A stretch of 64,000 nucleotides of DNA from Chelativorans xinjiangensis (GTDB lineage Bacteria; Pseudomonadota; Alphaproteobacteria; Rhizobiales; Rhizobiaceae). The stretch spans positions 62,001 to 126,000 of the forward strand of contig NZ_WQNH01000007.1 of assembly GCF_009812055.1 (NCBI RefSeq). Direction: 5' to 3'. The translations under genes and the position numbers were made by a program. Below the pieces are notes generated by a model, which was not told where the DNA came from, did not search any database, and saw only the letters and a program-made list of their open reading frames with translations. Of this stretch, positions 1,283 to 13,776 are shown one piece after another. Within the stretch, counting starts at the first letter, position 1; every line of letters starts with the position of its first letter.

Positions 1283-1768
1283 TCACGACGTTGGAAAATC
1301 GTACTTACGGGCGATGGCCCAGATTGTCTTGTTTATCCCGGCAAGCGAGGAGATGCTCTTCTTTATCTTCTCGACCTCCAATTCATCGAGGCTCTCGACC
1401 TTGCCGTATTTGATGTCGTCTTTGCCTTCGAAAATGCGCATCAGCTGCGTGATACCACGCCCGCTCTCGGGATCGAAGGAATAGATACAGTGGTTGAACT
1501 TGTTGCGAAGGCTTGCTTCCTTCGATAACTGCCGAGTGACTTCAAGGATTTCCGACCTACACGCCGCTGGCGTCTTCCGCATCTTTGCAAGACGCTCGAC
1601 GAGATCGATCCTGGCGCGTGGTGTGTTCAGCGTCAGGAAAATTATGATCGCCGTTTCCTTGTCCACGCCGGCAAGCCCCGCGATCAGGTAAATCAGCAGG
1701 CTTTCCGTGTTGGTCCACGTGTAGTTCAGTTGCCCTACGAGAAGCAGGATATCCTGGAGCTTGGGCAT
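1283..1768 (-). CDS. HEPN-like hypothetical protein
   Basis: A 161-residue cytoplasmic protein, mostly helical by eye, with no signal peptide. I do not recognise a named family. The central helix holds Arg88-Asn-Lys-Phe-Asn-His93, which fits the R-x4-6-H motif that marks HEPN RNases, and the protein is all-alpha as HEPN domains are. It is convergent with xthA and stands alone, with no obvious partner nucleotidyltransferase beside it. The R-x4-H match is a short pattern and could be chance. Coding status is supported by a well-behaved frame and normal amino-acid composition. Confidence 0.6.
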   Translation of the reverse strand: MPKLQDILLLVGQLNYTWTNTESLLIYLIAGLAGVDKETAIIIFLTLNTPRARIDLVERLAKMRKTPAACRSEILEVTRQLSKEASLRNKFNHCIYSFDPESGRGITQLMRIFEGKDDIKYGKVESLDELEVEKIKKSISSLAGINKTIWAIARKYDFPTS

Positions 1769-2257: not shown

Positions 2258-3946
2258 ATGGGTACCTGGAACAACCTTTTCGGTTGGTTTGATCCTGACC
2301 AGGAACAGGAACAGAATCAAGGTCAGGGACAAGGCCAAGGACAGGGACAAGGTCAGGGTCAGGGTCAGGGTCAGGGACAGGAACAAACACAGGAAAGCAC
2401 GTCCCTGAACCTCAATGGGAACGGCAACCTGAATGGCAACGGCAACCTCAACGGTAATGGCAACTTCAACGGCAACGCAAACGCCAATGCCAACCTGAAC
2501 AAGAGTGTCAATATCAACAAGAACGAGACCGATGTGGACGTGGATGTAGACGTTGGCATCGATCTGCACGGTTACAAGCCCTCAGATGACGACTTCGCCG
2601 ACATCGACATGAAGGGCTTCAACACTATCGAGGGCATGTTCAACACCAACTTCGAGGATGTTCTCGAAGAATCCCTCAACGGCGCCGGGAATGACGTTGG
2701 CAACGTCATCAACCAAGCCGCCAATATCTCTGATGACGACACGCTGTACAACGCCGAGGTCAAGAACGACGACCAGTTCTGGCAAGAGATCGATTCTCAC
2801 GGCGGCTTCGCTAAGGCGGACGACGGGATCGATGCCGGTGGCGGTGGCGGTTCTGGCGGTTCCAACGCCGACGCAAACGGTGGTGACGGTGGCCATGGCG
2901 GCTTTGCCATCGGCGGCAAAGGCGACGGCGGCAAAGGCGATGGCGGTCTAGCCGTCAGCATAGCGGCCGGCGGCGAAGGCGACGGCGGCGATGCCGAAGG
3001 CGGCAAGGGTGAAGGCGGCAAGGCCGACACTGGCAAGGCCGACGGCGGCAAGGGCGAAGGCGGTAATGGCGGCAACGGCGCGACAGGCGTCGGTGTTGGC
3101 CTCGGCCTTGGCCTAGGCCTCGGTGTTGGTGCCGCGTTCGCCGGTGACGGCGACGAAGGTGGCGACAGCGAAGGCGGCGACGCCGGCGACGGTGGTGACA
3201 GCGACGAAGCCAATGGCGGCGACGCTGAGGAAACCGGTGACGGTGGCGATGCCGAAGGTGGAGACGCTGTGGATGCGTTCTTCGCCGGCGTTCCCATCCT
3301 CAACTTCGGTGGCGATGCCGGCAACGCCGGCAACAGCGGCAATAGCCAAGGCGGCAACGGCGGCACCAGCGAAGGCGGTAACGGCGGCAACGGCGGCAAC
3401 GCTGACGATGCCGGCGACGGCGGTGCTGGCGGCAATGCTCTCGGTGCCGGTTTTGGCGGCGGCGTTGGTGCCGGAGCTGGCTTGGGCGTGGGCGGTGATG
3501 GCGGCAACGGCGGCAACGGTGCCGGCGGCGACGCCACGAGCGGCTGGGCCATCGGCGGCGACGGCGACGGCGGCAACGCTTATGCCGGCGGCGGCGACGG
3601 CGGTCATGCTCTGAGCGGCGCCTGGGCCAATGGCGACGGCGGTGACGGCTTCGGCGGCTGGGCGTTCGCCGACGGCGGCGGCGCCGGTGGCAATGGCGGT
3701 TTCGCGACCAACGGCAACGGCGGTAACGGCGGCGCAGGTGGAACGTGGGGCTCCAATAATGGCGATGACGGCTACGTCAACGGTCATAGCACCGCGACGG
3801 CAGACTCCATCGTCAACACCAGCGCCTTCAACCAGGAGATCGTGATGGGTGCAAACCTGCAGCAGAACGCGATCGACATGACCGTTGTGGGCGGCGACCT
3901 CAACAGCAGCGTTGCTGGCGAGGACTTCGACGACGCCACTGCCTAA
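2258..3946 (+). CDS. Gly/Asn/Gln-repeat protein, putative type I secretion substrate
   Basis: A 562-residue protein of extreme composition and no cysteine. After a short N-terminus (GTWNNLFGWF) come a Gln-Gly dipeptide tract (about residues 16-47), an Asn-Gly tract with VDVDVD (about 48-103), an acidic non-repetitive part (about 104-185), a long Gly/Asp/Asn/Ala-rich region built on GGxGG and GGDGG (about 186-510), and an Asn/Gln-containing acidic tail ending DDATA. There is no Sec or Tat signal. The type I exporter genes follow at 6057 and 8431, so secretion through them by the C-terminal tail is likely. A surface or matrix role is inference. An AGAGG ribosome binding site precedes the start. 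A perfect hairpin follows the gene. Confidence 0.85.
   Translation: MGTWNNLFGWFDPDQEQEQNQGQGQGQGQGQGQGQGQGQGQEQTQESTSLNLNGNGNLNGNGNLNGNGNFNGNANANANLNKSVNINKNETDVDVDVDVGIDLHGYKPSDDDFADIDMKGFNTIEGMFNTNFEDVLEESLNGAGNDVGNVINQAANISDDDTLYNAEVKNDDQFWQEIDSHGGFAKADDGIDAGGGGGSGGSNADANGGDGGHGGFAIGGKGDGGKGDGGLAVSIAAGGEGDGGDAEGGKGEGGKADTGKADGGKGEGGNGGNGATGVGVGLGLGLGLGVGAAFAGDGDEGGDSEGGDAGDGGDSDEANGGDAEETGDGGDAEGGDAVDAFFAGVPILNFGGDAGNAGNSGNSQGGNGGTSEGGNGGNGGNADDAGDGGAGGNALGAGFGGGVGAGAGLGVGGDGGNGGNGAGGDATSGWAIGGDGDGGNAYAGGGDGGHALSGAWANGDGGDGFGGWAFADGGGAGGNGGFATNGNGGNGGAGGTWGSNNGDDGYVNGHSTATADSIVNTSAFNQEIVMGANLQQNAIDMTVVGGDLNSSVAGEDFDDATA
2320..2390 (+). repeat. in-frame hexanucleotide repeat (CARGGN)
   Basis: The DNA encoding the Gln-Gly tract is a run of imperfect six-base units of the form CAR-GGN, several of them identical (GGTCAG). 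Because the unit is six bases, copy-number slippage would lengthen or shorten the Gln-Gly tract without breaking the frame. Confidence 0.8.
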
Positions 3947-3986
3947 AGGCGCCCCCGGTTCGCCTCCGAGCGAAACCAAACAACAA

Positions 3987-4012
3987 GGACTGCGCGGTTC
4001 TCCGCGCAGTCC
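3987..4012 (+). promoter_or_regulatory. intercistronic hairpin after the Gly-rich gene
   Basis: Perfect 11-base-pair stem (GGACTGCGCGG with CCGCGCAGTCC) and loop TTCT, 40 bases after the stop of the repeat protein and 58 before the next gene. No T-run follows, so it is not a standard intrinsic terminator. It more likely blocks 3' exonucleases or reduces read-through, giving an excess of the first gene's product over the exporter. Confidence 0.8.
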
Positions 4013-4070
4013 ACCCTAACCAAGTACGACCGGCCACGCGGCCAGCCGACCTCGTCAGGAGCGGTGTGTC

Positions 4071-6035
4071 ATGCACATGGACAGGATTACGGAAGCCATC
4101 GCACACTTTATCGGCCTGTTCGAGATTACGGTCGAAGAAGCGCGGCTTCGGGACGCATATGACGAGTTTCGTGCCAAAAAGACTGACGATCCCGAGCTTG
4201 CAGACTTGAACGCGGCCGCGATACCGTTCGCCGCTCCCTTCCGGTTCGTCGGTTTTGAGCCCGATCTCGCCTATCGCGCTCCTGCGCCCGAATGGGTCGT
4301 CGTGCACCCGTGGAGCTATATCAACTTTGTTCCCCCCGATGTCGAGCTGCCGGGAGCATACGAGATAGCCACTCCGATCTCCTTCTCCCTACCCATCATA
4401 AGCTACGCTTCCCACAGGATCATCCTCCCGGAGGTGGAGACGCTGGGGTCCTTCGCCAACTACATCAAACAGGACATCAGCCTGTCGGACAACGACTACT
4501 TCGGCGTCGGCGGGCATGGCCTGTTCTTCAACCCGGTCCCTGCCAGCAACTTTCAAATCGCGGCATTGACCGGTGCGGCGACGAACCTGATGCCCATCCT
4601 CGAACTTGAGATGCCCGGCTCTTCCGCGGAAGCCGCGGCCTTCGTGACTGCTGCTTCGGAGCTTTTGGACGAGCTTCCCGAGGATCCCGAGGGCGACGCG
4701 TCTGTGAAGAAGTCCCCGACCATCGAAGGGACGTTCGAAAACGGCGAAGAAGTCGACGAAGCCTCCAAGCTCGAGGATTACCACATGTTCGACAAAGAGC
4801 CTGAAGAGGCTCCTTCCGGGAATGTCCAGCTTACGGAAAACGGCCTCGTCATCGAGCAGTCGGTCGACGTGGAGACCGGTGGCAACACCCTGCTCAACAA
4901 TGCCGTTCTGCAGAACTACTGGACCTCGTCGCCGGTAACGGCAGTTGTCGGCGAGCACATCGAGATAAACGCCATCTTCCAAGTCAACGCCTGGTGCGAT
5001 AACGACTATATCTCCTCTGCGGTAGGCGGATGGATACGTGACACTGCCGCGACGCAGGCTTTCAATATCGCAAAGTTCGAGCGCTTCGATTCCTTTGACG
5101 ATGACACGCCAAATGGAGCGATGAGCTTCCCCAAACATTGGGTGATCAAGGAAATCGACGGCGATCTCATGATGATGAACTGGCTTGAGCAGTTCATCTT
5201 CATGATGGACAACGACGTCGGCATTCTCTCCTCTTCGGGCGTTACCACTCGCGTCTATTCCGGTGACAACAAGGCCTTCAACGATATCTCGATCGAGGAG
5301 CTCGGCTTCGGCTACGATCTCATCATCATCGGCGGAAACGTCTTCGATGCGAACATCATTCAACAGCTGAACATTTTGAGTGATAACGACTTTGTCGGGG
5401 CCGTTGACGGTTTCCAGACCACGGGTAACGGCTCCATTTCAACGTCGGGAAATCTGCTCTGGAATCAAGCCAGCATCTACAACGTGGGCGCAGCAGACCG
5501 GTTCGAAACACTGCCGGCCCACTATCTTGAAGCGGCGAACGATCTTGCCGCCGGCAACGATTACCTGAACAATGAATTGCTATCGGATTCCGCCTTTGCC
5601 GGATACGGCCCTCTGCGTGTGCTTTACGTCAAGGGCGACCTCCTCAACCTTCAGTACATCAAGCAGACGAATATTCTGGGCGACAACGACCAACTCGCCT
5701 TGGCGATGCATGCGAAGGATGCCTATCCGGATGCTGCATGGTCTGTCTCGACCGGCGGAAATGCGCTTCTGAACAACGCTGCTATCCAGGATCTGGATTC
5801 GGTCGGGAAAACCTATGTCGGCGGCGGCCACTACTCAAACGAGGTTCTCGTACATGCGGATATCATATCCACTGAACCGGATTTCGGCGGCCAGGACCCG
5901 AACGTGCTGGTCAACGAAGCCGTTGCGTTTCTCGACGACGACATGATGGACACCGGCGAGCAGCCGCAGGGCAACTTTGGCCAGTACGATGCGGACTATC
6001 TGCAGTCGGACGGCCTGAGCACAATGATCGGATAA
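4071..6035 (+). CDS. DND-repeat protein of the type I secretion operon
   Basis: A 654-residue acidic protein that I cannot assign to a known family. The first 130 residues are hydrophobic-aromatic. From residue 131 a motif of the form I-x-Q-x-N-x-L-x-DND recurs, with DND at about 140, 310, 380, 438 and 538. It alternates with a second motif, GGNxLLNNAxIQ, at about 270, 459 and 562. The stretch 200-250 is Glu/Pro-rich and low in complexity. There is no Sec signal, and the tail is Asp/Gly-rich. It lies between the Gly-rich gene and the exporter, so it may be a second substrate, an extracellular partner or an assembly factor. The repeats suggest a beta-solenoid or fibril-like fold; this is inference. 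Confidence 0.8.
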   Translation: MHMDRITEAIAHFIGLFEITVEEARLRDAYDEFRAKKTDDPELADLNAAAIPFAAPFRFVGFEPDLAYRAPAPEWVVVHPWSYINFVPPDVELPGAYEIATPISFSLPIISYASHRIILPEVETLGSFANYIKQDISLSDNDYFGVGGHGLFFNPVPASNFQIAALTGAATNLMPILELEMPGSSAEAAAFVTAASELLDELPEDPEGDASVKKSPTIEGTFENGEEVDEASKLEDYHMFDKEPEEAPSGNVQLTENGLVIEQSVDVETGGNTLLNNAVLQNYWTSSPVTAVVGEHIEINAIFQVNAWCDNDYISSAVGGWIRDTAATQAFNIAKFERFDSFDDDTPNGAMSFPKHWVIKEIDGDLMMMNWLEQFIFMMDNDVGILSSSGVTTRVYSGDNKAFNDISIEELGFGYDLIIIGGNVFDANIIQQLNILSDNDFVGAVDGFQTTGNGSISTSGNLLWNQASIYNVGAADRFETLPAHYLEAANDLAAGNDYLNNELLSDSAFAGYGPLRVLYVKGDLLNLQYIKQTNILGDNDQLALAMHAKDAYPDAAWSVSTGGNALLNNAAIQDLDSVGKTYVGGGHYSNEVLVHADIISTEPDFGGQDPNVLVNEAVAFLDDDMMDTGEQPQGNFGQYDADYLQSDGLSTMIG

Positions 6036-6056
6036 CGGATTTCCTGGGCGGTATCA

Positions 6057-8417
6057 GTGGGGGACGAACGCGACATATCACCAGGCTTGCCCGGCAAAAT
6101 GCCAGGGTGGGCCGTTCCGCAACCAGAGGCTGCTATGCGGCAATTTAGGGCAGGTGAAAGTCTTTCACATCCACCGCGCCGGGAGGAGGCGAAGATCGAG
6201 CGAGGGATATCAGAGATTGATCGTTTGGTGCAGGAAATCTTCGAGGAGGCGGCGTTGAAAAGAGCCAGCGACCTAGCAGAACGCGAAGCCGCACGGCCGA
6301 TATCCGCCGTGAAGCCGCCCGCAAATGACGGCTCGGGGAACGCCCGGCAGGATCCCGCTGAGCGGTATCAGCCCGACGATGCCCGAAATGGTGACGAGCA
6401 TCGACCTCAAGAGGTTCGGCGAGAGTCCCTACGGCAGGAGATGGCCGACAGGCGAGAAGACGCCGAGGAACCCCGCCCACGGGAGAACGGCTCAGCGTCA
6501 GCAGAGACGCGGCATATACAGGAACTACCGAAGCCGGCCATGAAAGATGGCGACCGCCCCGAAGGCATTGTCACCATCGAGGGCGACCGCGCCCCGATCA
6601 AAGTGCGCGAGCGTCCGGCCGACCAGCCAGCCGATCCCGGCAGTGGTAAAGGACCGAAGGGACCGGGTGGCGGTGATGGCGTTTTTCACAAGCGGCTCGG
6701 GCCTGTGGACTTTGCTGCCAGCCTCAAGGCTGGTTTGACCGCGGTCCGACAGAATCTCCTGGTCGTCATGGTTTTCACGGTGGCGAGCAATGCCCTGGTG
6801 CTGGCGATCCCGATCTATCTTTTCCAGATTTCGGATCGCATCCTGACGAGCCGATCGATCGACACGCTCGTGATGCTGACAATCGTCATCGTGGGGGCGG
6901 TCGTTCTGCAGGCGGTATTCGACGCGATACGGCGCTTCATTCTCATGCGGACGGCCGTCGAATTCGCTGCACAATTGGGTTCGCCTATCCTCAGTGCGGC
7001 AGCACGGGCTTCGCTGCATGGAAACGGCCGTGAGTATCAGACACTCGGCGATCTACAGCAGGTCCGCTCATTCCTCGTCTCACGCACGCTACTTTCCTTC
7101 CTCGATGCGCCGATCGCCCCGCTGTTTGTGCTCGCGGTGTTCCTGATCCATCCGCATCTCGGTTCGATCGTCGTGGTGACGGCCCTTCTGCTGCTTGTCT
7201 TTACACTCATCAACCAGCGCGCCACCGCGGGGCCGTTCGGGGAGGCGAACACCGCGCAGGTCAAAGCCAACCTCCACCTGGAATCCATGTCGCGCAATTC
7301 GCAGATTATCAATGCGCTGGCGATGATACCGGAAGCCGTGCAGATCTGGGGCAAGGACACGGCCGGATCCTTGAAATCACAGGTCGTCGCGCAGGATCGC
7401 AACATCGTCTTTGCCGCCCTGTCGAAGGGCTCGCGGCTCCTCACACAGGTCGCCATGCTCGGGTGGGGCGCCTATCTGGCGATCGAAGGTGAGATCACCG
7501 GCGGCATGGTGATCGCCGCTTCCATCATCGCGGGCCGCGCGCTGGCGCCAATCGAAGGCGCCATCGAGGGATGGAACCAGTACAGCCAGTCCCGCTCGGC
7601 GTTCGAACGCATATCGACACTGCTGAAGTCATCGCCGCTCAATTTCGAGCGTCTGAATCTGCCGCGGCCGGAAGGGCGCCTGGATGTGGAAAGGCTGCTC
7701 TACGTACCACAGGGAACCAAAAGGGTCGTTCTCAACGGCATTTCCTTCGCACTGGCGCCGGGGGACTCTTTGGCCGTCATCGGAAATTCCGGCGCCGGCA
7801 AGACGACGCTCGGCAAGATGCTTGTCGGCTCCATCCTTCCGACGTCGGGCAGCGTCAGGCTCGATCTCATGGATTTGCGCAACTGGGATCAGCGGCAGTT
7901 CGGCGAGAATATCGGCTACCTGCCGCAGGATGTTCAGCTCTTTCCCGGCACGATCAAGGCCAACATCGCGCGCATGCGCGACGATGCGACAGATGCGCAG
8001 ATCTACCAGGCGGCGAAGCTCGCGGATGTCCACGAGATGATCGCGACGTTGCCGCACGGCTATGAAACGGTCGTTGCCGCCGACGGAGCGCCGCTCTCCG
8101 GCGGCCAAAAGCAGCGCATCGCCCTCGCCCGGGCCTTCTTCGGTAATCCGCGCATGGTCGTGCTCGATGAGCCCAACTCCAACTTGGACAGCGCCGGGGA
8201 GGCAGCGCTGGTACGCGCGCTCGAGCACGCCAAGGAAAATAGGATCACCATGATCACGATCACGCAGCGGCCGGCACTGCTTAACAATGTCGACAAGATC
8301 CTGCTTCTGGTGAACGGCACCGTTGCTCTGTTCGGTGTGCGCAAAGACGTTCTGCAAGCGCTTTCGGCGCGCGGGGTGAGCATAGAGAACGGTTCCTTCG
8401 GGCACCAGATAAGCTGA
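6057..8417 (+). CDS. type I secretion ABC exporter with N-terminal extension
   Basis: A 786-residue permease/ATPase fusion of the PrtD/type I secretion class in the inner membrane. Membrane segments begin near residue 233. The ATPase domain has Walker A GNSGAGKTT near 576, signature LSGGQKQ near 680 and Walker B VVLDEP near 700. Classical PrtD proteins start almost directly with the membrane domain; here about 220 charged, Pro/Arg/Glu-rich residues precede it, without the Cys-His of a C39 peptidase. The listed GTG start has no good ribosome binding site. ATG at 6135, preceded by AGAGG, is a plausible alternative that would remove 26 residues. The gene is 21 bases after the DND-repeat gene, and the adaptor follows. 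Confidence 0.92.
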   Translation: MGDERDISPGLPGKMPGWAVPQPEAAMRQFRAGESLSHPPRREEAKIERGISEIDRLVQEIFEEAALKRASDLAEREAARPISAVKPPANDGSGNARQDPAERYQPDDARNGDEHRPQEVRRESLRQEMADRREDAEEPRPRENGSASAETRHIQELPKPAMKDGDRPEGIVTIEGDRAPIKVRERPADQPADPGSGKGPKGPGGGDGVFHKRLGPVDFAASLKAGLTAVRQNLLVVMVFTVASNALVLAIPIYLFQISDRILTSRSIDTLVMLTIVIVGAVVLQAVFDAIRRFILMRTAVEFAAQLGSPILSAAARASLHGNGREYQTLGDLQQVRSFLVSRTLLSFLDAPIAPLFVLAVFLIHPHLGSIVVVTALLLLVFTLINQRATAGPFGEANTAQVKANLHLESMSRNSQIINALAMIPEAVQIWGKDTAGSLKSQVVAQDRNIVFAALSKGSRLLTQVAMLGWGAYLAIEGEITGGMVIAASIIAGRALAPIEGAIEGWNQYSQSRSAFERISTLLKSSPLNFERLNLPRPEGRLDVERLLYVPQGTKRVVLNGISFALAPGDSLAVIGNSGAGKTTLGKMLVGSILPTSGSVRLDLMDLRNWDQRQFGENIGYLPQDVQLFPGTIKANIARMRDDATDAQIYQAAKLADVHEMIATLPHGYETVVAADGAPLSGGQKQRIALARAFFGNPRMVVLDEPNSNLDSAGEAALVRALEHAKENRITMITITQRPALLNNVDKILLLVNGTVALFGVRKDVLQALSARGVSIENGSFGHQIS

Positions 8418-8430
8418 AGGCGATCGCAAA

Positions 8431-9768
8431 ATGTCCGACATTGCGAAAGTTCATGACATCGAATGGTACTCCGACGTCCCTCGGTCGATCCGGAAGCAGA
8501 CGACCGTAGGCCTCGCACTCCTTGCCCTGACATTCGGGGGGTTCGGAGGCTGGGCGGTTACAGCTCCGCTTGCGGCGGCAGTCATCACGCAGGGCAGTTT
8601 CGTCGCCACTGGACAAAACAAGGTCATCCAGCATTTCGAGGGAGGGATCATCAAGGAAATCCTGGTCAACGAAGGCGATCGGGTCGAGCTCGATCAGCCA
8701 CTGGTACGCCTCGACGAGACGGCTGCGCTGGCCAGGGAACGGGAGCTGTTCTTGCGACGCATCAGGCTTGAGGCCATCGCCGCGCGGCTTACTTCCCAGT
8801 TCGCCGGATCCGATGAGCTGGTGTTTCCATCCCTCGTTGCGGACAATCAGGGCGATGTCGATATCGCTCCAATGCTGGAAGGGCAGCGGCTCAACTTTGA
8901 AGCCTGGAAATCCAAGCGTAACAGCGAGATAGCTTTGCTCGAGCGAAATATCGAGGCGTTGCGGTATCGCGCTGAAGGTTACGAAAAGCAGCGCGATGCG
9001 ATGGTCCTCCAGTTGAAGCTTCTGCGGGAAGAGGCGGAAGGGAAGGAGATCCTTTTGAAGAAGGGCCTGATGCGCAAGACAGAGATAAAGGCTATCCAGC
9101 GGGCGATCGCCGAAGCGAACGGCCAGATCGGCCGCCTGACGGCGGAAGTCTCCGAGACCCACTCACAGATCAGCAAACAAGAGCAGGAAATCATCCAGAC
9201 CGAGAGTACCTATCGGGAAGCCGCGCTCGATGAGCTGGAGGGCATCCAGGGGGAACTCGACTCCATTCGAGAGCAGTCTCGGGCAGCGGAAAACATTCTG
9301 CAGCGGGCGACGATCAACGCGCCAGTTGCCGGAACCGTGGTGCGGTTGAACTATCACACTCCAGGCGGCGTGATCGAGAGTGGTAAAGGCATACTGGAAA
9401 TCCTGCCAGCGGGAGCACCGCTCATCATCGAAGCACAGATACCGCGAACCGAGATCGACAGCGTGAGACGCGGGCAGAAGGCGACTGTGCGACTGACTGC
9501 GCTCAACCAGCGCACCACTCCCGTTCTGAATGGCGAAGTCTTTTACGTTTCTGCCGACGCGCTGCCGGGAGAGAAGGCAGCGCAGGATCAGGAAGTCTAC
9601 CTCGCACGCGTCCGCCTGCCTCCGAGCGAGATGGCAAGGGTCAGAGGTTTCTCTCCGACTCCAGGAATGCCGGCCGAAATCCTTATTCAAACAGCCGAGC
9701 GTACATTCTTCAGCTATATCACTAGGCCGATCGCCGACAGCATGTCGCGTGCATTCTCGGAGCGCTGA
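8431..9768 (+). CDS. type I secretion membrane-fusion protein, HlyD family
   Basis: A 445-residue periplasmic adaptor linking the ABC exporter to a TolC-type outer-membrane channel. One N-terminal membrane anchor lies at about residues 26-46. A lipoyl-like half (VIQHFEGG, then NEGDRV) follows, then a long coiled coil of Glu/Arg/Leu/Gln heptads (about 100-290), the second lipoyl half (INAPVAGTVVRLN) and a beta-barrel domain. It starts 13 bases after the exporter gene. No tolC-like gene is present in the window, so the outer-membrane channel must be encoded elsewhere. Confidence 0.93.
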   Translation: MSDIAKVHDIEWYSDVPRSIRKQTTVGLALLALTFGGFGGWAVTAPLAAAVITQGSFVATGQNKVIQHFEGGIIKEILVNEGDRVELDQPLVRLDETAALARERELFLRRIRLEAIAARLTSQFAGSDELVFPSLVADNQGDVDIAPMLEGQRLNFEAWKSKRNSEIALLERNIEALRYRAEGYEKQRDAMVLQLKLLREEAEGKEILLKKGLMRKTEIKAIQRAIAEANGQIGRLTAEVSETHSQISKQEQEIIQTESTYREAALDELEGIQGELDSIREQSRAAENILQRATINAPVAGTVVRLNYHTPGGVIESGKGILEILPAGAPLIIEAQIPRTEIDSVRRGQKATVRLTALNQRTTPVLNGEVFYVSADALPGEKAAQDQEVYLARVRLPPSEMARVRGFSPTPGMPAEILIQTAERTFFSYITRPIADSMSRAFSER

Positions 9769-10725: not shown

Positions 10726-11865
10726 ATGGATTTCCGCAACGTCGCAGCAGGTACAGCGGCTGCCGTTTTCGTCGTCTTATCGCCCATGCTCGATGCGAGC
10801 GCCGAAGCGGTAGTGGTGACCGACGTCACCGGGCGTGAGGTCGAGGTCAACGTGCCTGTCGAACGGGTGATCCTGGGCGAAGGCCGGCAGATCTATCTGG
10901 TGGCGGCGCTCGACACGGAGGAAGCATTCAAGCGGATCGTAGGCTGGCGTGACGACTTCAAGAGCGCCGATCCCGACAACTACGCCCTTTATCTCGAAAA
11001 ATTCCCGCAGATGGCGGATTTGCCCACCTTCGGCGGCTTCAAGGACGGCACCTTCGATGTGGAGCAGGCGGTCTCGTTGAAGCCCGACGCCGTCGTCATG
11101 AACATCGAGTCGAAGCAGGCGACCGAGGACGCGAAATACATCGAGAAGCTTGCCGCCGCCGGCGTTCCGCTCGTCTATGTGGACTTCCGCGAGCACCCCT
11201 TTGCCAATACGGAGCCTAGCATGCGCCTGTTCGGCAAGCTTTTCGGCAAGGAGGAGCGGGCGGAAGACTTCATCGCCTGGCGCGCTTCCGAGATCGCACG
11301 CGTCACCGATGTAATCGAGAAGGCAAACCCGGAACGCCCGACCGTCTTCATTGAGCGTGCAGGCGGCTATTCGGAAGACTGCTGCATGAGCTTCGGCAGC
11401 GACAATTTCGGCAAGTTTGTCGAGATGGCGGGCGGCGAGAACATCGCCAAGGACATCATCCCCGGCACCTTCGGCACGGTGAACCCCGAGCAGATCATCG
11501 CCTCCGATCCCGATCAGTTCATCACCACCGGCGGCTGGTGGGAGGCCTACGTGCCGGGTGGCGCCTGGGTCGGCGTCGGCCCCGGCCAGGACGAGGCCGA
11601 GGCGCTGCGCAAGCTCAAGGGGCTAACCGAGCGTCCGGCCTTCACCGGTGTCAAGGCCGTGAAGAACGACCAGGTGCACGCCATCTGGCACCAGTTCTAC
11701 AACAGCCCCTATCAGTTTGTGGCCATCCAGCAGATGGCGAAGTGGCTGCATCCCGAGCTCTTCGCCGATCTCGACCCTGAGGCGACCTTCGAAGAGCTGC
11801 ACGAGAGGTTCCTGCCCGTCGCCTACAAGCCCGGCCACTGGGTTTCGCTCGCCGATGGCGAGTGA
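10726..11865 (+). CDS. iron-type ABC transporter substrate-binding protein (copy 1)
   Basis: A 379-residue periplasmic protein of the FepB/BtuF (TroA-like, COG0614) class, which delivers ferric chelates, cobalamin or related ligands to FecCD-type permeases. A Sec signal covers about residues 1-26, and the mature protein opens with the typical VTDVTGREVEV strand. An unusual vicinal cysteine pair, Cys219-Cys220 in GGYSEDCC, sits in the middle and is shared with copy 2 at 13746. The ATP-binding and permease genes follow directly. By eye the two binding proteins are identical at well over half of their positions. The ligand cannot be told. Confidence 0.9.
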   Translation: MDFRNVAAGTAAAVFVVLSPMLDASAEAVVVTDVTGREVEVNVPVERVILGEGRQIYLVAALDTEEAFKRIVGWRDDFKSADPDNYALYLEKFPQMADLPTFGGFKDGTFDVEQAVSLKPDAVVMNIESKQATEDAKYIEKLAAAGVPLVYVDFREHPFANTEPSMRLFGKLFGKEERAEDFIAWRASEIARVTDVIEKANPERPTVFIERAGGYSEDCCMSFGSDNFGKFVEMAGGENIAKDIIPGTFGTVNPEQIIASDPDQFITTGGWWEAYVPGGAWVGVGPGQDEAEALRKLKGLTERPAFTGVKAVKNDQVHAIWHQFYNSPYQFVAIQQMAKWLHPELFADLDPEATFEELHERFLPVAYKPGHWVSLADGE

Positions 11866-12931
11866 TCGGGCAGCCGCCACCGCGCTCGATACCGACGGGG
11901 GGCGCGGGCATTACCGCGCCCTCGTCTGGCGGCGGCAACTGATTCTCGCGGGCCTCGGCGCGGCCCTTCTCTTCAGTCTCTGCGTCGACCTGGCCCTGGG
12001 GCCCGCCCGCTATGGCCTTGGCGAGGTGGTGCAGGGGCTGTTCGCACCCGATACCGTCTCACAGCAGGTGCGCGTGGTCCTGTGGGAGATCCGCATGCCC
12101 GTGGCGCTGATGGCCGTCGTGGTCGGCGCGGCGTTGAGCGTCGCGGGCGCGCAGATGCAGACCATCCTCAACAACCCGCTCGCAAGTCCCTTCACGCTGG
12201 GCATTTCCGCCGCCGCCAGCTTCGGCGCGGCCTTGGCGCTTGCCTTCGGCGTGGTGCTCATCCCCGCGGCCATCGAATATGTGGTGCCGATCAACGCCTT
12301 CGTGATGGCGATGCTCGCCGCCCTCCTCATCCACATGCTGAGTGTCAAGCGCGGCGTGACGGTCGAGACCATCGTGCTGCTCGGCATCGCGCTGGTCTTC
12401 ACCTTCAACGCGCTCCTTTCCCTAGTCCAGTTCCTCTCGTCTGCCGAAGCGCTTGCGGCCGTCGTCTTCTGGACCATGGGCAGCCTGACCAAGGCCACCT
12501 GGCCCAAGCTCGGCCTCACAACGCTGGTGCTCCTGGCCGTCCTGCCCGTCTTCGCGCGGCGCGCCTGGGCGCTGACGGCGCTGCGGCTGGGCGAGGACAA
12601 GGCGGCGAGCTTCGGCATCAAGGTCTCGCGCCTCAGGCTGGAGACGCTTATGATGGTCAGCCTGCTTGCCGCCATTCCCGTCGCCTTCGTCGGCACGATC
12701 GGCTTCATCGGGCTCGTCGGCCCGCACATCGCGCGCATGATCATCGGCGAAGACCAGCGCTTCTTCCTGCCGGCTTCCGCGCTTTCGGGCGCGCTGATCC
12801 TGTCGGCCAGTTCCGTGGTCAGCAAGCTGCTCATTCCCGGCACGATCTTCCCGATCGGCATCGTCACATCGCTGATCGGAATCCCGTTCTTCATCTCCCT
12901 CATCCTGTCCAGTGCGAGGCGCTCATGGTGA
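11855..12931 (+). CDS. FecCD-family ABC permease
   Basis: About 358 residues with some nine to ten hydrophobic segments, and typical family stretches such as GAALSVAGAQMQ and LASPFTLGIS. It forms the inner-membrane channel for the binding proteins on either side. The frame is open further upstream, but that part is the out-of-frame image of the preceding gene. The ATG at 11855 overlaps the previous stop by 11 bases and begins a normal N-terminus (MASDRAAAT). It overlaps the next gene by 7 bases, showing tight coupling. Confidence 0.93.
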   Translation: MASDRAAATALDTDGGRGHYRALVWRRQLILAGLGAALLFSLCVDLALGPARYGLGEVVQGLFAPDTVSQQVRVVLWEIRMPVALMAVVVGAALSVAGAQMQTILNNPLASPFTLGISAAASFGAALALAFGVVLIPAAIEYVVPINAFVMAMLAALLIHMLSVKRGVTVETIVLLGIALVFTFNALLSLVQFLSSAEALAAVVFWTMGSLTKATWPKLGLTTLVLLAVLPVFARRAWALTALRLGEDKAASFGIKVSRLRLETLMMVSLLAAIPVAFVGTIGFIGLVGPHIARMIIGEDQRFFLPASALSGALILSASSVVSKLLIPGTIFPIGIVTSLIGIPFFISLILSSARRSW

Positions 12932-13776
12932 CGATCCAGCTCGAAACGCTCGGCGCGCGCTACGGTAGGAGGCTCCTGCTCGAAGACGTGACGACGCCGG
13001 CGTTCAAGGGCGGCGACATGGTGGCCGTGATCGGCCCGAACGCCGCCGGCAAGTCCACACTCTTCAAGCGTGTGGCCGGCCTTCTGTGGGGGCCGGGCAA
13101 GGTGCATGTCGAGGGCGCGCTTCGAGGGCGGAACGGCATCTGCTACATGCCACAGGACACCTCTGCCAACGCGGTGCTTACCGTCTATGAGTCCGTGCTG
13201 CTCGCCCGCAAGCAGGGGGCGGGCTGGTCCGTCGGCGACGACGATCTCGCCTGCATCGATGAGACGATGGAAGCGCTCGGCATTTCCGACATCGCTTTCC
13301 GGAACATCGGCGAGCTTTCCGGCGGCCAGCGGCAGCTCGCGAGCCTCGCTCAGACACTGGTGCGCGAGCCGGAGATCCTGCTGATGGACGAGCCGACCTC
13401 CGCCCTCGATCTTTCCCGTCAGGTGGAGGTGCTTGGCCTCATGCAGGGCCTTGCCCGCGCGCGCGGCATGATCGTGCTGGTCGCGCTGCACGACCTCAAC
13501 CACGCCCTGCGCTTCTGCGACCAGACGATGGTGGTTGCAAACGGCCGGCTCATCGCCTGCGGGCCCTCCTCCGACATCGTCACGCCGGCGCTGCTGCGCG
13601 AGGTCTATCACGTCGATGCACGCATCGAGCCCTGCTCGCGCGGGATCGGACACGTCATCGTCGACGGGGTGGCGGCCGAGCGCCGGACATTCGCCCCGCC
13701 CACCGCCAAAACCAGTATTCGCAATCCGGATCGGGAGAACAGGAAATGTGGAGAAATGGCCGCCCAGGCATCGTGA
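12925..13776 (+). CDS. iron-type ABC transporter ATP-binding protein (FecE-like)
   Basis: A 283-residue ATPase. Walker A is GPNAAGKST, the signature is LSGGQRQL, Walker B is LLMDEPTSALD, and a switch histidine follows in LHDLNHA. The start at 12925 overlaps the permease stop and gives a normal MVTIQLE N-terminus. The frame continues upstream only as a shadow of the permease. The C-terminus overlaps the start of the second binding protein by 31 bases, so the four genes are translated as one unit. Confidence 0.93.
   Translation: MVTIQLETLGARYGRRLLLEDVTTPAFKGGDMVAVIGPNAAGKSTLFKRVAGLLWGPGKVHVEGALRGRNGICYMPQDTSANAVLTVYESVLLARKQGAGWSVGDDDLACIDETMEALGISDIAFRNIGELSGGQRQLASLAQTLVREPEILLMDEPTSALDLSRQVEVLGLMQGLARARGMIVLVALHDLNHALRFCDQTMVVANGRLIACGPSSDIVTPALLREVYHVDARIEPCSRGIGHVIVDGVAAERRTFAPPTAKTSIRNPDRENRKCGEMAAQAS

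Follow-up and report, generated by a model that had tools for sequence, protein, structure and literature searches.

A conserved type I secretion module with two unassigned repeat proteins and a HEPN-like partner in Chelativorans xinjiangensis and other Alphaproteobacteria

Background

Several described bacterial systems resemble, each in part, a module of five genes that is present in a stretch of 64,000 nucleotides (the window) from the soil bacterium Chelativorans xinjiangensis (assembly GCF_009812055.1, contig NZ_WQNH01000007.1, positions 62,001-126,000 of the forward strand). Four of the genes are located on the plus strand (2258-9768) and encode two repeat-rich proteins, P1 and P2, followed by a PrtD-type ATP-binding cassette (ABC) exporter and an HlyD-type adaptor of a type I secretion system (T1SS). 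The fifth gene is divergent and encodes a protein of 161 amino acids (aa) that we call HEPN-like. With moderate confidence we consider the best reading of the module to be a two-protein surface matrix that would be exported by the T1SS, with P1 in bulk, P2 as a minor component and the HEPN-like protein as regulator. No description of the module was found by title or abstract in the open-licence PMC literature.

The amyloids curli and Fap have Gln/Asn-rich repeats and combine a bulk subunit with a minor partner, as we propose for P1 and P2. Their export is Sec-dependent and proceeds via an outer-membrane pore, whereas the genes found here are those of a T1SS. Moreover, no Curlin match was obtained for P1, P2, two tandem P1 relatives or 14 P2 proteins, and a reading as curli was rejected. 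The RTX adhesins and PrsDE substrates of rhizobia resemble the present proteins in that they are acidic, show no N-terminal signal and use a PrtD-type T1SS, but P1 and P2 differ from them in having no match to the nonapeptide GGxGxDxUx. A T1SS also exports the S-layer protein of Caulobacter.

Among Alphaproteobacteria, Paracoccus denitrificans encodes BapA, an acidic low-complexity protein of 2,211 residues with Asp-Ala repeats, which is a predicted T1SS substrate encoded beside its exporter (BapBCD), is linked to an outer-membrane gene and is needed for biofilm formation (PMC5588039). The portions of that report used here name no partner that resembles P2 or the HEPN-like protein. Neither P1 nor P2 can be identified with BapA: the long Asp-Ala repeats are not present, although some P1 relatives do have DA runs (L034). 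In the Cdz system of Caulobacter, two surface proteins, CdzC (86 aa) and CdzD (84 aa), depend on a T1SS, carry Gly motifs, aggregate and kill; a divergent small gene lies beside them, and the immunity protein, CdzI, is mainly an inner-membrane protein (PMC5380434, in the portions used here). Compared by size, P1 and P2 (562 and 654 aa) are not the paired glycine-zipper proteins of less than 100 aa that characterize Cdz. Finally, a motif of the R-polar-x3-H type has been described for HEPN ribonucleases, and MtlR has been placed among the HEPN proteins with the suggestion that it works at the level of RNA and not as a DNA-binding repressor of the conventional kind (PMC3710099, likewise in part).

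Conservation of the module

The composition of the module is conserved. The exporter and adaptor genes adjoin P2 in all 33 loci compared, and P1 is recognisable in 32 of them, the exception (L084, genome G325) being a locus with a very divergent P2. These loci comprise one from each of the 13 other P2-containing genomes of a 61-genome set and 20 from 19 further Hyphomicrobiales genomes, which is a part of the positives there. A first-pass annotation of the window had proposed a dedicated exporter and adaptor that serve two unassigned proteins. Both terms hold, because the two proteins have no family matches, are not RTX proteins and are constantly accompanied by exporter and adaptor. The annotation also placed the four open reading frames (ORFs) correctly, although it drew the left edge of the conserved unit too short by omitting the partner gene on the minus strand, and it missed the repeat-unit anatomy of P1 and a hairpin between P1 and P2.

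A hidden Markov model (HMM) of the 161-aa protein matched in 38 of the 39 loci scanned besides the window (L038 being the window's own genome), the match in L034 being weak (E 8e-10). The gene was found in 36 of 397 Hyphomicrobiales genomes, of which 32 belong to the 33 that have P2 (Fisher P 1e-41, not corrected for relatedness); in two genomes (G138 and G284) the two genes are on different contigs. Four genomes have the 161-aa gene and no P2 match: in G388 the match is close to a contig end, with 3 kb in view, and in G051 and G376 the matches are weak. The fourth, G330 (L132:9603-10355), has a strong match with no P1, P2 or exporter within about 10 kb, and this solitary relative could reveal an independent role. 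On plasmids the gene accompanies P2 in 32 of 32 records with a P2 match; the 33rd record with the gene belongs to S. fredii CCBAU 25509 and matches P1.

Among named genomes those of Chelativorans species are the closest, with P2 identities of 95, 88 and 57% in the best segment. P2 occurs in 12 of 15 other genomes of the genus and, counting the window's own genome, where it is a single copy, in 14 of 61 genomes overall, 33 of 397 Hyphomicrobiales genomes, 2 of 385 sampled from the class and 8 of 398 sampled from the phylum, all eight within the class of the window. The 32 plasmid records belong to Ensifer, Sinorhizobium, Paracoccus, Sulfitobacter and other genera. Thus, in the samples searched (for chromosomes, within the phylum), the module is confined to Alphaproteobacteria and is partly carried by plasmids, and it represents two unnamed protein families with a HEPN-like partner that are defined by synteny. 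Six pattern matches to P2 in viral contigs were not confirmed, and phage records gave none.

Some loci deviate from the common layout. Two P1 copies stand in tandem at L069, L070 and L138. The P1 model gave no match at L089 (Sulfitobacter), yet tblastn gives P1 matches in five Sulfitobacter records. For S. fredii CCBAU 83666 (H40) the plasmid searches returned a C-terminal P1 match and no P2 or 161-aa match. An apparent fusion of P1 and P2 in Rhodobacter sp. CZR27 (L141:2995-7548, annotated as 1,517 aa) is more likely a frameshift, since the C-terminal part of P1 is basic there and looks out of frame. At L090 (Rhizobium sp. RCAM05350) the frames of P2, exporter and adaptor are fragmented, by sequencing error or decay. 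Where annotated records were consulted, both P1 and P2 carry the name hypothetical protein, or P2 that of a secretion ATPase, to which it bears no resemblance; the label 'type I secretion protein ATPase' at L089 and L142 (both Sulfitobacter) looks wrong, as the relatives have no ATPase family match.

The putative substrates P1 and P2

Neither protein belongs to a recognised family, in line with the first-pass annotation: no significant match was found for P1 or P2 in Pfam, NCBIfam, PHROGs or PDB, and 14 P2 proteins and their profile matched nothing among Pfam and PDB sequences. Weak matches of P1 to EBNA2_Core (E 0.05) and phrog_18306 (E 0.01) fall on its low-complexity start and were attributed to composition, as was a LiaG match (E 0.0044) in one P1 relative. 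The RTX nonapeptide (PF00353) is absent from both proteins, again as first noted, and a reading as RTX proteins was rejected; elsewhere in the genome PF00353 occurs at 11 places, none of them on the contig of the window (C86).

P1 is indeed the cysteine-free, Gly/Asn/Gln-rich protein of the initial description (0 Cys, 0 Arg, 31% Gly, 11% Asn and 11% Asp, pI 4.05). By eye no signal peptide is visible, and in most rows of a listing of P1 C-termini the end is acidic. The frame is intact in the two relatives used for the estimation of dN/dS (NG86), with values of 0.07 and 0.22 for the whole protein and of 0.09 and 0.28 for the Gly-rich part. Because the frame is intact and the ratios are below 1, P1 is a genuine coding sequence under purifying selection, including the Gly-rich stretch.

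Comparison of the relatives reveals two conserved parts in P1, IxQxAxIxDDDTLxNAEV...GGxAxADDGI and GDDGxVxG...SAFNQEIVMGANLQQNAVDMTVVGGN...GED, and these are the halves of one unit of about 135 aa: tandem P1 relatives in G423 (L081) and G364 (L082), with open frames of about 1,570 and 1,620 codons, repeat the anchor motif 10 and 12 times at a spacing of 127-142 residues. In 14 P1 proteins the conserved half-modules are flanked by variable low-complexity parts. The Gly-rich stretch stressed at first is present, but it is not a conserved core: as far as the relatives tell, it is the variable part of P1, since they exchange one type of run for another (QG, QE, QQ, SE, DA or NDNST in the N-terminal part) and since the P1 of Sinorhizobium meliloti Ak57, a protein of 183 aa in which both half-motifs are degenerate, has little insert.

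This compact P1 gene is located at L140:2611-3162 on a record labelled pSymB, with an EAL-domain gene nearby. It was the single matching record labelled S. meliloti (the total for that species was not counted), and the module may be accessory there.

P2 is an acidic protein as well, with a conserved TEAIAHFIGLF segment near the N-terminus and about six repeat units. The DND repeats first noticed in it stand up to a count of the motif Q-x5-D-x-D: P2 of the window has five, which none of 2000 shuffles reached (mean 0.15), and in 14 of 14 P2 proteins the count exceeded all 2000 shuffles, although some distant relatives have no more than two or three. The tandem P1 proteins of G423 and G364 have nine and ten such motifs, also above all 2000 shuffles, and the single motif in P1 of the window is not above chance in that sequence alone (498 of 2000 shuffles reach as many). 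At the C-terminus all 41 P2 proteins listed (more than 40 bits and 400 aa, a selection that leaves out L084) show, by eye, an acidic residue followed by a short, mostly hydrophobic end. A tail of this kind is expected of a PrtD-type substrate, and P2 is the likelier of the two proteins to carry a putative C-terminal export signal.

It is improbable that P1 and P2 are extracellular proteins that bind calcium or other metals in roles like those of RTX proteins, such as storage, sensing or lectin-like binding, and form no matrix. The pI of both proteins, the D-x-D motifs and the adjoining T1SS genes are what such a role would predict, but an RTX repeat is lacking, and the low-complexity inserts and tandem forms of P1 look structural.

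The export machinery and the hairpin

The exporter and the adaptor score well above the family cut-offs (Table 1), and no C39 peptidase is among the Pfam matches of the exporter. The first part of the exporter gene (6057-6734) encodes some 226 charged, probably disordered residues ahead of the PrtD core. Three PrtD-type exporters in the genome exceed the cut-off, and TolC-type (OEP) proteins are encoded on other contigs (C31 and C30), unlinked to the operon; their pairing with this exporter is a candidate one. The exporter itself is thus an ordinary one; the substrates, the hairpin and the HEPN-like partner are not.

The gap between P1 and P2 contains a perfect hairpin that is not followed by a run of T on the plus strand; read on the minus strand, it is scored as terminator-like. 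A perfect stem of at least 8 bp was found in this gap in 28 of 34 loci, and for each of these stems no more than 3 of 200 dinucleotide shuffles did as well. The stem sequences vary from locus to locus while the pairing is maintained. The count leaves out L038, P1 frames below 150 aa and gaps outside 20-400 nt by the start rule (L073, L074, L079, L082 and L083). In other operons intercistronic hairpins are known to act as stabilisers or attenuators, and by analogy the hairpin may raise the output of P1 over that of P2.

A more specific proposal would turn the matrix into a new class of extracellular fibre, self-assembling and amyloid-like, that is exported by the T1SS instead of a curli- or Fap-type pore, with P1 as polymer, P2 as nucleator or anchor, a ratio set by the hairpin and an MtlR-like HEPN protein that acts on that RNA as an on/off switch. 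In this full form we regard the proposal as unlikely.

The HEPN-like partner

The 161-aa protein contains an Rx4-6H motif with a polar residue after the Arg (R88 N89 ... H93), as described for HEPN proteins. Among the 15 proteins compared H93 is invariant (15/15), R88 is replaced by Lys in one and N89 by His in one. The AF2 model is all-helical (pLDDT 78.5, with residues 96-125 below 50), and its fold matches include Csm6 (Z 7.3), HI0074 (Z 7.2) and MtlR (Z 5.9 and 5.7); the best Foldseek match has an E of 0.3. Profile searches of the 15 proteins gave weak matches to PADLOC Csx1 in three (best E 9.5e-5) and to Pfam HEPN_Cthe2314 in one (E 0.011). The protein of the window differs from MtlR and other HEPN proteins in having no significant profile match, in NCBIfam and PDB sequence searches that gave nothing relevant, and in the operon beside it. 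The weak assignment is the reason for the term HEPN-like, not HEPN.

A LuxR-type gene is found nearby in 19 of the 39 loci at E <= 0.001, some of the matches being weak, and none in the operon region of the window. BTAD/SARP-like regulator genes were observed near the module at L036:5314-6084 (below the cut-off) and L037:4000-4776 (above it).

In a further alternative, the two proteins would form a bacteriocin or a contact-dependent inhibition system on the cell surface, comparable to Cdz, and the 161-aa protein would confer immunity or be the toxin. The broad layout is the same, with a pair of secreted proteins that have Gly motifs or repeats, a T1SS exporter and adaptor and a divergent small gene (PMC5380434, as far as used here), and HEPN proteins are often toxins (PMC3710099, with the same limit). 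We nevertheless consider this quite unlikely given the difference in protein size, the helical bundle predicted for the 161-aa protein as opposed to the mainly inner-membrane CdzI, and the strong conservation of the former (dN/dS 0.04 and 0.08 in the same two-relative comparison), which one would not usually expect of an immunity gene. Less probable still is an S-layer-like, paracrystalline coat in which P2 would be the main constituent and P1 would act as spacer or bind glycans: the Caulobacter precedent for T1SS export and the alignment of P2 relatives along their full length, unlike P1, are set against the absence of an S-layer family match and a P2 of only 654 aa.

Function of the module

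A surface or matrix system, with fibrils or hydrogels in mind, had already been suggested in the first-pass annotation, and this part of it stays a proposal. For the two-protein surface matrix that we prefer, the following course of events can be envisaged. The PrtD-type protein, the adaptor and an unlinked TolC-type channel would export both P1 and P2. Outside the cell, P1, as the structural protein, would make up most of a fibrous or gel-like coat, which P2, as minor partner, may nucleate, cap or anchor, and the hairpin after P1 would let P1 output exceed that of P2. The HEPN-like protein, accompanied in about half of the loci by a LuxR-type gene, may control expression, possibly by binding or cutting RNA. 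The exported proteins would probably serve as glue or scaffold around the cell. The repeat architecture and the hairpin agree with a surface matrix, as do the genes for UDP-sugar metabolism, galE, glycosyltransferases and glycosyl hydrolases that border the HEPN-like gene in two Sulfitobacter records, polysaccharide neighbours that would suit such a function. If it is correct, the module would be a means of attaching to surfaces, carried in part on plasmids, that is invisible to the family libraries used, and an unusual link between a HEPN-like protein and matrix production. The gene order, the repeats, the hairpin, the selection and the lack of family matches are established from sequence, and from these export, assembly, stoichiometry, adhesion and regulation are inferred.

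Several observations weigh against this picture. The genes that adjoin the operon in the window (exonuclease-type and methyltransferase) give no pointer to a matrix. The roles of P1 as bulk and P2 as minor component would depend on the hairpin alone, and six of the 34 loci (L035, L069, L070, L078, L080 and L139) have no clear hairpin. AF2 modelling of P2 (four sequences) gave a pLDDT of 26 and supported no beta-solenoid or amyloid fold. The repeats of P1 and P2 share a motif order (GGNxxxN, then QxNxLxDxD), but hhalign gave a probability of 2% (P ~0.02), and homology between them is not claimed. As for the regulator, unrelated helical bundles reach Z 9.6 with the 161-aa model and so outscore the HEPN folds, and FliG models equal or beat the HEPN model in some relatives (FliG_N in 1 of 15, E 0.0022; FliG_M in 3 of 15).

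Table 1. Features of the module (positions in the window)
Feature	Position	Strand	Basis
161-aa HEPN-like protein, R88-N89-x3-H93 motif	1283-1768	-	divergent from operon; HMM matches in relatives
P1, 562-aa Gly/Asn/Asp/Gln-rich protein without Cys	2258-3946	+	ORF, composition, selection
P1 N-terminal low-complexity part (QG, then NLNGNG runs)	2258-2569	+	comparison with relatives
P1 repeat unit, first half (GNDVGNVINQAANISDDDTLYNAEV...GGFAKADDGI)	2570-2830 (approximate limits)	+	comparison with relatives
P1 Gly-rich insert, ~300 aa, splitting the repeat unit	2831-3742 (approximate limits)	+	comparison with tandem-repeat and insert-poor relatives
P1 repeat unit, second half (SAFNQEIVMGANLQQNAIDMTVVGGD...GED)	3743-3943	+	comparison with relatives; dN 0.006 and 0.039
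Perfect 11-bp GC-rich hairpin	3987-4012	+	between P1 and P2
P2, 654-aa acidic repeat protein, one Cys, pI 4.05	4071-6035	+	ORF, alignment of relatives
P2 repeat region, GGNxLxNxAxI ... VVGG ... IxQxNxLxDND units	4854-5888	+	alignment, motif count
PrtD-type T1SS permease/ATPase	6057-8417	+	TIGR01842, 711 bits (cut-off 510)
HlyD-type T1SS periplasmic adaptor	8431-9768	+	TIGR01843, 376 bits (cut-off 209)

Genomic surroundings

Rfam and tRNA scans of the window returned no match. A promoter scan gave no sites (2.0 expected), and seven terminator-like sites were scored (8.4 expected), among them, in its minus-strand reading, the hairpin between P1 and P2. Further downstream, at 10726-13776, iron-siderophore-type ABC transport genes were recognised by eye in the ORF list; the methyltransferase gene lies in between, and they are apparently unrelated to the module.

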